Assembly (NCBI RefSeq): GCF_002278925.1
Contig: NZ_NCJH01000002.1
Coordinates: 186,001 to 250,000 of the forward strand
Direction: 5' to 3'
Origin: Polaromonas sp. 39-63-25
GTDB lineage: Bacteria > Pseudomonadota > Gammaproteobacteria > Burkholderiales > Burkholderiaceae_C
DNA: 64,000 nucleotides
A model generated the notes under the pieces. That model had not been told where the DNA came from and did not search any database. It saw only the letters and a program-made list of their open reading frames with translations. A program made the position numbers and the translations under genes. Positions 16,361-63,619 of the stretch are shown here, one piece after another; positions within the stretch are counted from its first letter, which is position 1, and each line of letters opens with the position of its first letter.

Positions 16361-16425
16361 TTTGCTACTCTTAATATAGCTATATAACCAATAAACACGA
16401 GCGCTAGATCCATATTTTTCACAAA
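16361..16425 (+). repeat. Probable diverged copy of the ~65-nt interspersed repeat
   Basis: Starts TTTGCTACTCTTAATATAGC and ends with a GCGCTAG and a TTTTTCA run, matching both ends of the repeat family described at 60213 and 48504. It accounts for the AT-rich gap between the DUF4395 and methyltransferase genes. Confidence 0.45.
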
Positions 16426-21041: not shown

Positions 21042-21102
21042 ATTTGCTATCTATTAGATAGCTACTGGCGCAATACAGGCAAGGTCTGAAGGCACTTTTC
21101 AT
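21042..21102 (+). repeat. Copy of the ~65-nt interspersed repeat
   Basis: Starts TTTGCTATCTATTAGATAGC, continues with a CTACTGGCGC core and AAGGTCTGAAGGC, and ends ACTTTTCATCA. The same order of blocks is present at 23832, 48504 and 60213. It sits downstream of the membrane protein gene at 21131-21370, in the katG/21131 convergent gap. Confidence 0.5.
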
Positions 21103-21130
21103 CACAATCAGGACACCTGCCGCGGCAGGC

Positions 21131-23831: not shown

Positions 23832-23893
23832 ATGCTACTGTTTTGATAGCAGCCTGCGCTTTCCCGGCAAGGGATGATGCCTCTTTTCATGAA
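23832..23893 (+). repeat. Copy of the ~65-nt interspersed repeat
   Basis: Begins GCTACTGTTTTGATAGCAGC, contains TGCGCTTTCCCGG and AAGGGATGATGCC and ends CTCTTTTCATGAA. Block order matches the copies at 48504 and 21042. It lies in the gap between the DUF3422 start and the OsmC stop. Confidence 0.55.
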
Positions 23894-48503: not shown

Positions 48504-48572
48504 TTTACTATAAATCTGATAGCTTCTTGCGCCCGTCCCGTATGGGCTGGAGGCTGATTTTTCTTGTAAAAC
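48504..48572 (+). repeat. Copy of the ~65-nt interspersed repeat (well conserved)
   Basis: Contains TTTACTATAAATCTGATAGC, CTTCTTGCGCCCGTCCCG, GGGCTGGAGGCTGATTTTTC and a TTGTAAA end. It matches the xdhA copy at 60213 in block order and spacing. It lies in the gap between dcd and the guanine deaminase gene. Confidence 0.7.
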
Positions 48573-58616: not shown

Positions 58617-58680
58617 CTTATATATGTTTTAGGGCCCTGGCCCTTGTGCAGAAAGCGCAAGCAGCTATTCTTTTCGTAGC
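58617..58680 (-). repeat. Copy of the ~65-nt interspersed repeat overlapping the LysR gene end
   Basis: On the minus strand it starts GCTACGAAAAGAATAGCTGC, continues TTGCGCTTTCTGCAC and AAGGGCCAGGGCCC. The TAG stop codon of the LysR-family gene (58665-58667) lies inside the repeat, so the last codons (ALRKE) are repeat-encoded. Confidence 0.6.
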
Positions 58681-59597
58681 GCCGAAGCCACCGTCTTGAC
58701 ACGGTCGCGCAGCCATTTGGCCGACGCCGAAGCATGGGTGCGCTCATGCCAGAGCTGGTAATACATCATGCGGGGGAAGTCTACCGGGCAGGGCAGGATC
58801 TTCAGCGGCAGGGCCCCGGTGTAACGCTCGCAGTACTGGCGGCCGGTGGTCAGCACCAGCAGGCTGGAGGCCACCATGGCGGGAATCAGGCCGAAATGCG
58901 GGCAGCGCACCGTGATGTTGCGCTGCAGGCCCAGCTTGTCCAGGTGTTCATCGATCACGCCCTTGGCGCCCGGGTGGGTGGGCGTCGGCGCCACGTGTTC
59001 GGCGGCCAGCCAGCTCGCGCTGTCCCAGCCGCGGCGTGCCGCCGGGTGGTCTTTGGCCACCAGGCACACCACTTCGTCGCCGAACAGGCGTGCCATGTGC
59101 AGGTCGCCGGGCGGCGCTGGCCAGTTGCCGACCACGATGTCGACCTCGCCCTGCGCCAGCCGGGTGCGGTAGTCCGACTCGCCCGACAGCGGATGAATGT
59201 CCACATGGCACAGCGGCGCCTGGTTCTTGATCTGCGCCACGAGCTGCGGCAAGAACAGCGGGTCCATGTAGTCGCTGCAGGCCAGGCTGAAGGTGCTGGT
59301 GGCGGTGGCCGGATCAAAGCCGCGTGCGTCGCTGAACAGCACCTCGGCCGCCCGGAGAATGCGCGCCGAGGGGTCGATCATGCGCAGGCCGGCGTCGGTG
59401 GGTACCATGCCGGCGCCCGAACGCACCAGCAGCGGGTCACCCGCCAGCTCGCGCAGGCGTTTGAGCGCCGCGCTGACGGCGGGTTGGTACATTCCAAGGC
59501 GGATGGCGGCGCGCGAAACGCTGCGTTCGGTCAGCACGGTGTTCAAGACCCTTATGAGATGGAGGTCTATCTTGTCGAATAAGGCCTGGTCTTTCAT
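58665..59597 (-). CDS. LysR-family transcription regulator
   Basis: 310 residues. N-terminal helix-turn-helix (LIRVLNTVLTERSVSRAAIRLGMYQPAVSAALKRLRELAGDPLLVRSG split over 15-62) and a substrate-binding effector domain (about 90-300). It faces xdhA across a 72-nt gap that contains twin palindromes, so it probably regulates xanthine dehydrogenase in response to a purine. The start ATG at 59597 gives the usual MKDQALFDKIDLHL beginning; a start at 59642 would overlap the candidate operators. Confidence 0.9.
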   Translation of the reverse strand: MKDQALFDKIDLHLIRVLNTVLTERSVSRAAIRLGMYQPAVSAALKRLRELAGDPLLVRSGAGMVPTDAGLRMIDPSARILRAAEVLFSDARGFDPATATSTFSLACSDYMDPLFLPQLVAQIKNQAPLCHVDIHPLSGESDYRTRLAQGEVDIVVGNWPAPPGDLHMARLFGDEVVCLVAKDHPAARRGWDSASWLAAEHVAPTPTHPGAKGVIDEHLDKLGLQRNITVRCPHFGLIPAMVASSLLVLTTGRQYCERYTGALPLKILPCPVDFPRMMYYQLWHERTHASASAKWLRDRVKTVASALRKE

Positions 59598-59628
59598 ACC
59601 TTTTTGTGCATCGGCTTGATATGGCGAT

Positions 59629-59661
59629 GGGTATACCCGCATCGCGCGATTGGGTTTACCC
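59629..59661. promoter_or_regulatory. Twin GGGTWTACCC palindromes between lysR and xdhA
   Basis: GGGTATACCC at 59629-59638 and GGGTTTACCC at 59652-59661 are 23 bp apart start to start, about two helical turns. A further inverted pair GCGATG/CATCGC flanks the first one. The second box ends 8 nt before the xdhA ATG. Position and spacing suit binding of a LysR tetramer. Confidence 0.6.
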
Positions 59662-59669
59662 TAGTAAAT

Positions 59670-61238
59670 ATGGACATTCAATCGCCTCTCAAAACCATTC
59701 AATTCATCCGGGGGGGCGAGGTGGTCGCGCTCGCCAATGTACCACCCAGCCGCACGCTGCTGGAGGTGCTGCGCGAGGACCTGGGGTGCACCGGCACCAA
59801 GGAAGGCTGCGGCGAAGGCGACTGCGGTGCCTGCACGGTGGTGGTCGGCGAGGCCGAAGGCGGACGTCTCCGTTACCGGGCGGTCAACAGCTGCATCAAG
59901 CTGGCGCATTCGATTGATGGCCAGGCACTGTGGACGGTGGAAGACCTGGCCGCCGCCGACGGCACGCTGCACCCGGCGCAGGAAGCGATGGTGCAGTGCC
60001 ACGGCTCCCAATGCGGCTTTTGCACCCCCGGTTTTGTCATGAGCCTGTTTGGCATGTACCAAAACCACGTTGCTTGCGGTACACCCATCACCCGCGAGCT
60101 GGCGCAGCAGGATCTGTCAGGCAACCTGTGCCGCTGTACCGGCTACCGGCCTATTTTTGACGCTGCGCAGCAGATGGCAACACTGCCCGCCGTGCAGGTC
60201 AACGAGGCCGAATTGCTATCAAAACTGGAGCTGCTTGCGCAGACCCGGAAAGGGCTGGAGGCCGATTTATCTTATAACGCGCCGCGGACCCTGGCGGAGC
60301 TGCTGGCCGCCCGCGCCGCCCACCCCGACGCCCAGCTCGTCGCCGGCTGCACCGACGTCGGACTCTGGGTGACCAAGATGCACATGCAGTTCGGCCAGGT
60401 GCTGGACGTGACACGGGTGGAGGAACTCCGGCGGGTCGAGCATTACGGCCACCACGTCGCCATCGGCGCGGCCGTCACGCTGGCCGACGCCTTTGCCGCG
60501 CTGGTGGCCGACCGGCCGCAGCTGCAGGCCTTTGCCCATCGTTTTGCCGGCCTGCCGGTGCGCAACGCCGGCACCCTGGGCGGCAACGTGGCCAACGGTT
60601 CGCCGATCGGCGACTCGATGCCGCTGCTGATCGCGCTCGGCGCGAATGTCGTGCTGATGAGCCTGCGCGGCCACCGCGAGCTGCCGCTGGAGCAGCTCTA
60701 CACCGGCTACCGCAAGAATGTGATGGCCAAAGACGAGGTGCTGGCCTGGATCAAGGTGCCGCGGCCGGTGCGCCCTCACCCCAGCCCTCTCCCGGCGGGA
60801 GAGGGAGGAAAACCAGGCGCTCCTGCTCCCTCGCCCCTCAGGGGAGAGGGCTGGGGTGAGGGGCAGGAGTTGCTCCGGGTCTACAAGATTTCCAAACGGT
60901 ATGACGACGACATCTCGGCCGTCTGCCTGGCACTGAACCTGCAGATCGAGGACGGCAAGGTGCTGAAAGCCTCTATAGGCGCCGGCGGCGTGGCGGCCAC
61001 GCCGGTGCGCGCGGTGCTCACTGAAGCCGACCTCACCAGCCGGCCCTGGACCAGCGCCACCGTGCAGCAGGCCATCACCACCCTGCGCGCCGAGTTTTCA
61101 CCGATCTCCGACATGCGCGCTTCCGGCGCCTACCGCAGCGAGGTGCTGGGCAACCTGCTGCAGCGCTTCTGGCTGGAGAGCCAGGGTTTGCAGCAGATCA
61201 ATCTGGAATCCTTTGTGCTCGTGGAGGAATCCGCATGA
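59670..61238 (+). CDS. xdhA: Xanthine dehydrogenase small subunit
   Basis: 522 residues. First [2Fe-2S] domain with CGEGDCGAC (C47, C52, C55) and C75; second cluster with CGFCTPG (C115, C118) and NLCRCTGYRP (C154, C156). A linker (about 181-203) is encoded by an interspersed repeat. The FAD domain follows (LVAGCTDVGLWVTK, GNVANGSPIGDS). Residues ~368-397 are an extra Pro/Gly-rich stretch (SPLPAGEGG, SPLRGEGWGEG) encoded by a perfect inverted repeat, just before YKISKRYDDDISAV. The subunit passes electrons from the molybdenum site to NAD. No clear ribosome site is seen before the ATG at 59670. Confidence 0.94.
   Translation: MDIQSPLKTIQFIRGGEVVALANVPPSRTLLEVLREDLGCTGTKEGCGEGDCGACTVVVGEAEGGRLRYRAVNSCIKLAHSIDGQALWTVEDLAAADGTLHPAQEAMVQCHGSQCGFCTPGFVMSLFGMYQNHVACGTPITRELAQQDLSGNLCRCTGYRPIFDAAQQMATLPAVQVNEAELLSKLELLAQTRKGLEADLSYNAPRTLAELLAARAAHPDAQLVAGCTDVGLWVTKMHMQFGQVLDVTRVEELRRVEHYGHHVAIGAAVTLADAFAALVADRPQLQAFAHRFAGLPVRNAGTLGGNVANGSPIGDSMPLLIALGANVVLMSLRGHRELPLEQLYTGYRKNVMAKDEVLAWIKVPRPVRPHPSPLPAGEGGKPGAPAPSPLRGEGWGEGQELLRVYKISKRYDDDISAVCLALNLQIEDGKVLKASIGAGGVAATPVRAVLTEADLTSRPWTSATVQQAITTLRAEFSPISDMRASGAYRSEVLGNLLQRFWLESQGLQQINLESFVLVEESA
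60213..60281 (+). repeat. In-frame copy of the ~65-nt interspersed repeat inside xdhA
   Basis: Starts TTGCTATCAAAACTGGAGCT, continues GCTTGCGCAGACCCGG and AAGGGCTGGAGGCCGATTTA, and ends TCTTATAA. It is read in frame as LLSKLELLAQTRKGLEADLS, in the linker between the second iron-sulfur domain and the FAD domain. Its first 21 bases are identical to the xdhB copy at 62549. Confidence 0.75.
60773..60862. repeat. Perfect 21-bp inverted repeat inserted in frame in xdhA
   Basis: Bases 60773-60793 (CCCTCACCCCAGCCCTCTCC plus one C) are the exact reverse complement of 60842-60862, around a 48-nt loop. The 90-nt unit is 30 codons without a stop. This palindrome is a type found in intergenic regions of many proteobacteria as I recall it, so it appears to be an insertion into the FAD-domain coding region. 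Confidence 0.85.
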
Positions 61239-63619
61239 ACGCGCGGGAAAAGAACCACAACGAAGGCCCGGTCAGCCGCGCCGACAACCCGGCTGTGCCC
61301 GTGGTCCCTGTGCCGACCGTGGCCGCCCCCGCCGCAGCGAACAGGCCCGCCCGTGGCGCCTCCGGCAAGTCGCACAAACACGAAAGCGCCCGCGCGCAGG
61401 TGGCAGGTGCCGCAACCTATGTGGACGACATCCTGGAGGCGCGCGGCACCCTGTACGCGGCGCCCATCCTCTCGACCGTCGCCCACGGCCGGCTGCGGGG
61501 CGTGGATGCCACGGCCGCGCTGGCCATGCCCGGCGTGCGCGGTGTCGTTCTGGCAGACGACATTCCGGGCGACCCGCTGCTGGCCACCTTTGTGCATGAC
61601 GAACCGGTGTTTGCCACCGATACCGTCGAGCACATCGGCCAGGTCATCGGCCTCGTGGTTGCCAGCTCGGTGATGCAGGCACGCCGCGCCGCGCGAAAGG
61701 TCAAACTCGAGATCGAGGAACTGCCGGCCATCCTGAAGGTGCGCGATGCGCTCAAGGCCGAAAACTATGTGTTGCCGCCGGTGTTTGTGAAACGCGGCGA
61801 CGCGGCGCAGGCGCTGGCCTCGGCCCCGCACACCCTGAGCGGTCAACTCGAGGTCGGTGGCCAGGAGCACTTCTACCTCGAAGGCCAGATCGCCTACGTG
61901 GTGCCGCAGGAGCAGAACCAGTGGCTGGTGTATTCCAGCACCCAGCACCCGGGCGAGGTGCAGCACTGGGTCTCGCACGCGCTGGGGACAGCCAACCACG
62001 CGGTGCGCGTCGAGTGCCGGCGCATGGGCGGCGGCTTCGGCGGCAAGGAAACGCAGGCCGGCCACCTCGCCGTGTGGGCCGCGATTGCCGCGAACAAATT
62101 CCAATGCCCCATCAAGCTGCGGCTGGACCGCGACGACGACTTTCTGGTCACCGGCAAGCGCCACCCCTTTGCCTACGACTACAGCGTGGGTTTTGACGAG
62201 ACCGGACGATTGCACGGCCTCAAACTTTTGATGACCGCCAACTGCGGCTTCAGCGCCGACCTGAGTGGCCCGGTGGCTGACCGCGCGATTTTCCACACCG
62301 ACAACGCCTATTTTCTGGAAGACGTGGAAATCGCGTCCTACCGCTGCAAGACGAACACGCAGAGCCACACCGCCTTCCGTGGCTTCGGCGGGCCGCAAGG
62401 CGTGGTGCTGATCGAGACCATCCTCGGCGACATCGCGCGGCATCTGGCCCTGGACCCGCTGGATGTGCGCATGCGCAACCTGTACGGCGTGGAAGACAGG
62501 AACACCACCCATTACCAGATGAAGGTCGAGGACAACATTCTCGATCCGTTGCTATCAAAACTGGAGCTGTCTGCGCAGTACCGGAGCCGGCGCAAGGCCA
62601 TTTCGGCATGGAACGCAAAAAGCCCGGTGATCAAGCGCGGCATCGCCATCACGCCGGTCAAGTTCGGCATCTCCTTCACCGCCACCTTGTTCAACCAGGC
62701 CGGCGCACTCGTGCATGTGTACACCGACGGCAGCGTGCAGGTGAACCACGGCGGCACCGAGATGGGCCAGGGGCTGAACACCAAGGTCGCGCAGATCGTC
62801 GCCGACGAACTCGGCGTGGCCTTTGACGACGTGCTGGCCACGGCCAGCGACACCAGCAAGATACCCAACGCCTCGGCCACCGCCGCCTCGGCCGGCACCG
62901 ACCTGAACGCGCGCGCCGCGCAGTATGCCGCGCGCAATGTGCGTGACAACCTGGCGCAGTTTGTGGCGGGCCTGGACGGCTGCGGCGCCGGCGCCGTGTC
63001 GTTTGCCGGTGGTGCCATCAGTTCGCCCAAAGGCAGCCGGTCCTTCCCGGAGGTGGTGCGTTTGGCCTACGCCAACCGCATCCAGCTCTGGAGCGACGGT
63101 TTTTATCGCACACCCAAGATCCACTACGACAAGACCACCCTCACCGGCCGGCCGTTTTACTACTTCGCCTACGGCGCCGCCTGCAGCGAGGTCGCCATCG
63201 ACACGCTGACCGGTGAAAGCCGCGTGCTCAAGGTCGACATCCTGCATGACGTGGGCACCAGCATCAACCCGGCGATCGACATCGGCCAGATCGAAGGCGG
63301 CTTTGTGCAGGGCATGGGCTGGCTCACGACGGAGCAGCTGGTGTGGAATGACAAGGGCCTGCTGAGCACCCACGCGCCCAGCACCTACAAGATCCCGGCG
63401 ACCGGCGACATCCCCGAACACTTCAAGGTGGATCTCTGGCCCGAGCCGAACCGCGAGGACAACGTGTTCGGCAGCAAGGCGGTCGGCGAACCGCCCTTCA
63501 TGCTGGCGATCAGCGTGCTGGAGGCGCTGAAGGACGCGGTGGCGGCAGCACGGCCGGGTGCGGTTCGGCTCGATGCGCCAGCTACTGCCGAGACTGTGCT
63601 GAGGGCGCTGAAGGCCTGA
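61235..63619 (+). CDS. xdhB: Xanthine dehydrogenase molybdopterin subunit
   Basis: 794 residues, normal for the large subunit. After a Pro/Ala-rich start, the Ald_Xan_dh domains show AGAATYVDDILE, the molybdopterin-site GGGFGGKETQ, FRGFGGPQG and QVNHGGTEMGQGLNTK, and the catalytic glutamate region KAVGEPPFMLA near the end. It hydroxylates hypoxanthine and xanthine to urate. The ATG overlaps the xdhA stop (ATGA). A repeat copy is read in frame as PLLSKLELSAQYRSRR (about 437-452). No xdhC gene follows within the window. Confidence 0.96.
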   Translation: MNAREKNHNEGPVSRADNPAVPVVPVPTVAAPAAANRPARGASGKSHKHESARAQVAGAATYVDDILEARGTLYAAPILSTVAHGRLRGVDATAALAMPGVRGVVLADDIPGDPLLATFVHDEPVFATDTVEHIGQVIGLVVASSVMQARRAARKVKLEIEELPAILKVRDALKAENYVLPPVFVKRGDAAQALASAPHTLSGQLEVGGQEHFYLEGQIAYVVPQEQNQWLVYSSTQHPGEVQHWVSHALGTANHAVRVECRRMGGGFGGKETQAGHLAVWAAIAANKFQCPIKLRLDRDDDFLVTGKRHPFAYDYSVGFDETGRLHGLKLLMTANCGFSADLSGPVADRAIFHTDNAYFLEDVEIASYRCKTNTQSHTAFRGFGGPQGVVLIETILGDIARHLALDPLDVRMRNLYGVEDRNTTHYQMKVEDNILDPLLSKLELSAQYRSRRKAISAWNAKSPVIKRGIAITPVKFGISFTATLFNQAGALVHVYTDGSVQVNHGGTEMGQGLNTKVAQIVADELGVAFDDVLATASDTSKIPNASATAASAGTDLNARAAQYAARNVRDNLAQFVAGLDGCGAGAVSFAGGAISSPKGSRSFPEVVRLAYANRIQLWSDGFYRTPKIHYDKTTLTGRPFYYFAYGAACSEVAIDTLTGESRVLKVDILHDVGTSINPAIDIGQIEGGFVQGMGWLTTEQLVWNDKGLLSTHAPSTYKIPATGDIPEHFKVDLWPEPNREDNVFGSKAVGEPPFMLAISVLEALKDAVAAARPGAVRLDAPATAETVLRALKA
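62549..62590 (+). repeat. Partial in-frame repeat copy inside xdhB
   Basis: The first 21 bases equal those of the xdhA copy at 60213 (TTGCTATCAAAACTGGAGCT plus G), followed by a TGCGCAG core and CCGGAG; similarity then fades. The reading frame relative to the repeat is the same as in xdhA (LLSKLEL in both). Confidence 0.65.

Follow-up and report, generated by a model that had tools for sequence, protein, structure and literature searches.

Two bacterial families have established uptake sequences, DUS and USS, whose known cores measure 9-12 nt, and molecular drive has been proposed for the DUS of the Neisseriaceae and the USS of the Pasteurellaceae. DUS are abundant, are 10-12 nt long and have ComP as their receptor. 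They are reported to be depleted where DNA has been acquired or is diversifying and to differ between lineages (PMC2397512, PMC3630211), and for many of them an arrival by recombination has been argued (PMC2397512). USS are reported to be dispersed over coding and non-coding DNA, to occupy sites that are long stable and to carry a 9-bp core with a very strong consensus, and a gap test was used to show that they are born by substitution and are not insertions (PMC1626085); in H. influenzae their spacing is given as about 1,000 bp (PMC7811141). Dispersed repeats of other kinds are also described from coding sequence. The Rickettsia palindromic elements (RPE), insertions of about 150 bp that add peptide, are translated in frame in unrelated genes (PMC10969869), and the BRE, G+C-rich repeats of about 90 bp, are dispersed in Polaromonas, with some copies in coding sequence, and are reported to be most numerous in Polaromonas JS666, with 29 (PMC3110155).

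The subject of the present analysis is a repeat of about 53 nt in Polaromonas sp. 39-63-25, which was noticed in a stretch of 64,000 nt (hereafter the window) with copies inside both xdhA and xdhB. A preliminary description read it as a mobile or spreading element that adds tolerated peptide segments to two subunits of one enzyme. The insertion reading is replaced here by overwriting in place, at the DNA level, in many genes, and function as an uptake signal is the leading but unproven explanation. The motif shares with DUS and USS the presence of many dispersed copies far above chance and, for most of the tested in-gene copies, with the one in an aconitase gene as an exception, an origin in place. 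Like USS it is dispersed over coding and non-coding DNA, is substitution-born by the same gap test and occupies long-stable sites; like DUS it is abundant, while depletion in acquired regions and a difference between lineages are only hinted at here. It differs from USS in its length, its relaxed consensus and its density of about one copy per 7 kb, and from DUS, with their known receptor, in that its receptor is putative and that it has no short dominant core. As with RPE, the repeat is translated in frame in unrelated genes, but at most tested sites it replaces existing sequence without a change of length; of the features expected of RPE and MITEs, insertion with empty sites was not found among the tested in-gene copies (aconitase excepted), nor was an inverted repeat maintained by pairing found among 88 copies. 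Since the JS666 genome holds 29 BRE and two matches to the motif, BRE and the motif are most likely different; identity of the two is disfavoured by these counts, the separation being drawn from description and counts.

A search of the 4.83-Mb genome with the core pattern GATAGCTKCTTGCGC, allowing up to two mismatches, gave 282 matches, 24 of them exact, against 14 for the reversed pattern. An iterated profile, run over 464 kb made up of C31:1-400000 and the window, recovered 69 copies and none in the reversed control; in 680 kb of the contig C31 it gave 89 non-overlapping matches, again with none for the control. Extrapolation gives an estimate of about 630-720 copies for the whole genome, a density of about 130-150 per Mb. 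The genome search, profile and copy count proposed in the preliminary description have thus confirmed one dispersed repeat family, far above chance and abundant in this genome. Its consensus, approximately GCTATtaAATtaATAGCTGCTTGCGCCCGcccgacAAGGGCTGgAGGCCgaTT, carries about 46 bits across 53 positions, the position weight matrix having been built from 67 of the 69 copies after the xdhA copy and one gapped match were dropped. The left part of the motif is a palindrome, GCTAT..ATAGC, the arms of which show no covariation (positions 5 and 13 in 88 copies, Fisher p 1.0). The strong short core of DUS and USS was not found, 10-mers of the motif being absent from the 40 most over-represented 10-mers of the 680 kb.

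Four copies outside the xdh genes were detected in the window by a profile free of the xdh copies. Three are intergenic and on the plus strand, at 48505..48567 (E 1e-14, the top profile score of the window), 23832..23891 (E 1e-9) and 21044..21103 (E 1.4e-8). The fourth, at 58620..58682 on the minus strand (E 4.6e-12), shares the 3' end of an ORF at 58665..59642, also on the minus strand, the product of which we take from its sequence to be a LysR-type regulator. The related copies listed earlier at 48504, 58617 (minus), 23832 and 21042 are thereby confirmed. Two weaker ones listed with them, at 16361 and 13213, are not: only a match at 16397 with E 4.8 was obtained for the former, and none up to E 10 for the latter.

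The gene xdhA (59670..61238, plus strand, putative start codon) encodes the FeS/FAD subunit of xanthine dehydrogenase, as judged by its match to 1jro_A, and xdhB (61235..63619, plus strand) encodes the molybdopterin subunit, matching 1jro_B. The xdhA copy, LLSKLELLAQTRKGLEADLSYNA at 60213..60281 on the plus strand, is read in the frame xxG CTA TCA AAA, has E 5.8e-11 with the xdh-free profile and presumably sits between the stretches that match the 2Fe-2S and the FAD regions. The 21 identical bases TTGCTATCAAAACTGGAGCTG begin at 60213 and 62549 and are read as LLSKLEL in both genes, just as claimed. With up to two mismatches CTATCAAAANTGGAGCTG has 26 matches in the genome against 0 for the control, and it occurs exactly in three places, namely xdhA, xdhB and one other. 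That both genes carry copies was likewise correct, but the xdhB copy, LLSKLELSAQYRSRRKAISAW at 62549..62613 on the plus strand, had been called partial; though diverged, it aligns to the profile over the full length (E 8.5e-7 with a profile including the xdh copies) and is therefore not merely partial. With the xdh-free profile this site is not significant (E 3.4), and it is missing from the 69 profile matches. The xdhB copy is supported instead by its first rank when all 4,660 53-mers of xdhB, both strands included, are scored, by the synonymous-codon test, in which it scores 27.9 against a null of -17.1±10.7 with 0 of 5,000 shuffles as high, and by the matching pattern in relatives. The corresponding values for the xdhA copy are 55.8 and 6.5±9.9.

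The sequences of XdhA and XdhB were aligned with those of 80 loci to distinguish insertion from replacement, XdhB being readable in 71. The nearest xdhA relatives place the genome in Polaromonas. A gap at the xdhB motif site is present in none of the 71 aligned relatives, and the alignment with Rhodobacter capsulatus XdhB (1jro_B) is gap-free there. The XdhB rows of Ramlibacter and Caenimonas that lack the repeat read LMAQLERTSNYRQRRAAIA or similar, and a peptide identical or close to LLSKLELSAQYRRRREAIS, with repeat-like codons, is present in many rows of Polaromonas and Rhodoferax. The XdhA linker varies among relatives by a net -5 to +29 residues; 35 of the 39 rows with a motif score above 20 show no net length change, and the 33 rows scoring below -20 have a median of -1 residue. 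Motif-bearing XdhA rows are not about 18 residues longer than motif-free ones, contrary to what a 53-nt insertion would lead one to expect. The outcome of the alignment is replacement in place, and a mobile element adding peptide segments to the two subunits is not borne out; spreading in some sense stands, mobile insertion does not. It had also been argued that the same peptide segments encoded by unrelated codons in distant species would reflect protein conservation. This is half borne out: relatives that lack the repeat use unrelated codons for a similar XdhB peptide (LLxxLExTSxYRxRRxAI), but codon choice in repeat-rich genomes has converged on the repeat more closely than the protein demands.

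This convergence was examined in 49 genomes and the window (n=50), the genomes being drawn from 50 of the 80 loci, hand-picked near the window and mostly carrying both genes, with L105 left out. They were classed by their number of core matches as having at least 15 (26 genomes) or at most 6 (21 genomes), three with 7-14 standing outside the classes. For XdhA and XdhB each, the site exceeds the synonymous null (p<0.01) in all 26 genomes with at least 15 copies, and in all 26 the xdhB site is the top motif match of its gene; among those with at most 6 copies, 7 of 21 satisfy both the synonymous-null and the rank-1 criteria. Site score and genome core matches correlate with rho 0.84 for XdhA and 0.73 for XdhB (n=50), values that are uncorrected for kinship and, because the species are related, do not count as independent support. 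When the motif label (score above 0, 34 rows) is mapped on a 72-row XdhB tree, a minimum of 15 changes is required, six of them forced by starred branches. A phylogenetically independent test was not significant, its six pairs falling about four in the expected direction, none in the opposite one and about two equal (median p 0.125). Four low-copy genomes (L046, L070, L071 and L075, with at most 6 matches) still score above 0 at XdhB, and these motif-like sites are either relics or a variant missed by the core pattern. In the same tree L089 XdhB stands on a very long end branch (0.72), and its sequence is possibly that of a paralog.

The pattern extends to many genes besides xdhA and xdhB. According to gene calls made on C31 with a simple gene finder, 54 of the 89 copies in 680 kb are intergenic, 7 lie over gene ends and 28 are within genes. 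The 28 in-gene copies are limited to three of the six possible frames, 16 of them in antisense phase 1, 7 in sense phase 0 and 5 in sense phase 2, and although 53 nt is not a multiple of three, the frames of the host genes are intact. Ten motif-bearing proteins were scanned with Pfam, while aconitase and other products are named from their sequences. The motif is wholly enclosed by the matched domain of AroE, PdxJ, a hydroxyisobutyrate-dehydrogenase type protein and HemD, and partly by that of a MobA-like protein. In DapF it falls, by coordinates, in the gap between two matched stretches, in a LytTR response regulator in a linker, in MurJ and an HpcH-type protein past the matched domain, and in a transglycosylase/transpeptidase in a putative signal peptide and linker. 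Orthologs were taken from the motif-poor Polaromonas JS666, CF318 and G308 and also from G099 and G200, and were available for 14 in-gene sites, giving 35 site-species pairs in which the tblastn alignment spans the element. In 17 of the 35 the ortholog is motif-free (best score below 0), and 15 of these 17 have no indel inside the element, one of the 15 (173116 against G099) being poorly aligned. The two exceptions are aconitase (11 residues, G099) and DapF (2 residues, G308). At the LysR-type gene the left motif arm supplies the last codons and the TAG stop (CTA CGA AAA GAA TAG CTG...), and relatives without the motif also end in LRKE and a stop, with different codons. The gap-free sites, the synonymous excess, the indel-free orthologs and the restricted frames indicate that the motif arises in place, at the DNA level. 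Copies also persist: of 26 chosen sites 18 could be aligned, the others failing the projection filter, and for 16 of these 18 C31 sites the corresponding position in G099 or G200 also scores above 0, in several cases with diverged flanks, which suggests that the copies are maintained and are not decaying remnants of an old element.

Uptake-biased transformation appears to be the known process that fits these observations best, and it is the leading, though unproven, interpretation. The repeat would be a double-stranded DNA sequence signal and not an inserted element. It would build up through substitutions or recombination in existing sequence, both in intergenic DNA and within genes wherever the encoded protein tolerates the motif. 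The most likely driver would be biased natural transformation, in which a putative cell-surface DNA receptor favours fragments bearing the motif, so that better-matching alleles are taken up and recombined more often and molecular drive results; xdhA and xdhB would be two among many genes with codons pulled toward the motif. We infer the uptake function and the receptor, and the reading of the motif as a duplex signal of the DNA-uptake-sequence type, built in place and spreading by molecular drive, is our tentative preference, held at a little below even confidence. Several observations speak against it, namely the relaxed consensus, the lack of a dominant short core, the length of the motif, its low density and a spacing whose evenness in the first 400 kb is lost over 680 kb. 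The same holds for the competence genes, which do not discriminate, for the four low-copy genomes that score above 0 at XdhB, for the non-significant independent-pairs test and for the 11-residue indel at the aconitase copy. Modelling, as cited in PMC7811141, indicates that uptake bias alone accumulates uptake sequences. Sequence-specific transformation is reported in the Comamonadaceae: Acidovorax temperans yielded transformants with conspecific DNA alone, data that the source mentions without showing, and selective uptake was inferred for Verminephrobacter eiseniae (PMC4212676). Since the sequence behind this selectivity is not named in the relevant account of that source, the uptake idea is directly testable. 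The motif strings occur in none of the papers searched, and among those listed for uptake sequences in the Comamonadaceae, Burkholderiales or Polaromonas none describes the repeat in its title or the opening part of its abstract. The wider proposal, that the motif is a self-recognition signal of the Comamonadaceae, about 53 nt long, two-block and self-overwriting, which underlies the selectivity of Acidovorax and Verminephrobacter and has altered amino acids in many conserved enzymes including both xanthine dehydrogenase subunits, is plausible and is advanced a little more cautiously still.

If the uptake reading is true, the motif would be a third and much longer uptake signal, it would open the search for a new receptor-DNA pair and allow molecular drive to be tested, and a DNA-level pressure would be seen to reshape conserved proteins in environmental bacteria. 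Should the function turn out otherwise, the in-place origin of a 53-nt motif in many genes, among them genes for conserved enzymes, would still call for an explanation.

The competence-gene profile was considered as a discriminator and rejected, as ComEC and PilQ fail to separate motif-rich from motif-poor genomes. ComEC has matches in 294 of 299 genomes, 281 of them over the cut-off, and none of the five genomes without ComEC has at least 15 core matches. PilQ has matches in 49 of 49 genomes, 44 over the cut-off, and three of the other five (G313, G316 and G332) have at least 15 copies; the sub-cut-off PilQ in these motif-rich genomes may reflect incomplete assemblies or a real absence.

The alternative that survives best is a chromosome-wide site, selected and evolving in place by point mutation, for a candidate intracellular DNA-binding protein acting in organisation, segregation or repair. 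A relaxed consensus and a moderate density would suit such a site, as would a bipartite duplex motif whose arms do not covary, and the in-place origin is explained equally well. The strands are partially biased on one contig, with 45 copies to 19 in the first 400 kb of C31, but the following 280 kb hold 15 and 11, and in a sample from G226 the bias is reversed against GC skew (7 to 17), so that replication-strand polarity was discarded. Moreover, with the core GATAGCTGCTTGCGC and at most one mismatch, only two matches were found in the JS666 genome (locus L044) and three in CF318; the motif is not essential to the genus, since these same-genus genomes do without it. On this evidence we consider a binding site unlikely, though it is an alternative to be taken seriously. 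Even spacing is not consistent along the contig: it holds in the first 400 kb of C31 (CV 0.70, P 0.0013) and fails over 680 kb (CV 1.14), and gaps below 1 kb number 3 against 10.8 under a uniform null (P 0.0026) or 6.5 under a matched null (P 0.096).

As separate observations on strand and lineage, exact cores ATAGCTGCTNGCGC in G226:C1 lie on the plus strand in 27 of 36 cases, 17 of them consecutive between 1.02 and 2.96 Mb, and matches at up to one mismatch are balanced there between the strands (124 and 130); similar one-strand runs of exact ATAGCTGCTNGCGC cores are seen in G262:C1. In G287 the variant core GATAGCTGCTTGAGC occurs six times exactly and the usual CGC form not at all, counts that are too few but would be compatible with a possible lineage dialect.

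The distribution of the motif relative to acquired DNA was surveyed as well. The largest motif-free gap of the 680 kb, on this one contig, spans 63 kb (G000:C31:437359-500347) with a GC content of 0.568 against 0.635; its genes are presumably sugar-nucleotide and polysaccharide genes, and the region is a probable acquired cluster. An insensitive query, which recovers no more than 10-12 places from 400 kb of C31, gave no match in 50,697 phage records and matched 15 plasmid records, two from the Comamonadaceae and the rest weak and in unrelated genera.

Insertion in frame of a palindromic mobile element, similar to MITEs or to the Rickettsia palindromic elements, as the preliminary description proposed, would account for a dispersed family with a left palindrome and in-frame translated copies, and the net difference of 11 residues at the aconitase copy is in its favour. 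It is difficult to reconcile with an xdhB that has gained no residues relative to 71 relatives, with the 15 of 17 indel-free ortholog pairs and with a length that is no multiple of three in genes whose frames are intact. At the LysR-type gene the supposed left arm consists of codons already present as LRKE and stop in motif-free relatives, and the palindrome arms do not covary. The gap analysis rules out such insertion for most in-gene copies, aconitase excepted, and as a general account we regard it as improbable.

Ectopic conversion, in which donor copies or a putative single strand made by the cell would anneal to partial matches and overwrite them, accommodates overwriting without a change of length, tracts of motif length and the mosaic intermediates seen in XdhB. 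The copies, however, are diverged and mosaic and are not near-identical tracts, and the strand bias is inconsistent between samples; little probability is given to this process.

An element acting at the RNA level, such as a terminator or an mRNA hairpin, could draw on the position of the copies, since a location between convergent genes applies to 19 of the 47 copies outside genes but to 32 of the 210 intergenic regions of at least 50 bp, and on the predicted fold of a consensus-like sequence (-21.1 kcal/mol). An RNA hairpin, or an element transposed by way of a hairpin, is nevertheless unlikely because the arms show no covariation, 16 of the 28 in-gene copies lie in antisense orientation and the window contains no Rfam match above the gathering score; the RNA-level explanation as a whole is judged very improbable. 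That the xdhA and xdhB sites reflect nothing more than a conserved protein or a chance resemblance is scarcely credible. Species without the repeat do keep the XdhB backbone (LL, LE, Y, R, R, I), but the synonymous null is rejected for both genes in all 26 repeat-rich genomes; this explanation is refuted for xdhA, where an independent profile finds the copy, and unlikely for xdhB.

Other repeats were encountered in the course of these comparisons. The gene xdhA holds a second, G+C-rich repeat at 60777-60866, read as HPSPLPAGEGGKPGAPAPSPLRGEGWGEGQ. A segment of comparable length is present in 14 of the 81 spanning rows, the window included, though not all of these are this repeat, and it is a net addition relative to many relatives, 1jro_A being without it; judged from the alignment, it looks like a true in-frame insertion, unlike the main motif. 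A repeat of about 95 bp, possibly BRE, lies at L147:3465-3560 and also at L141:3333-3427 and has many copies in the relatives G200 and G099. A further repeat of about 210 bp (L153:11162-11378) is present in many copies, in both orientations, in Polaromonas JS666, CF318, G308 and G099.
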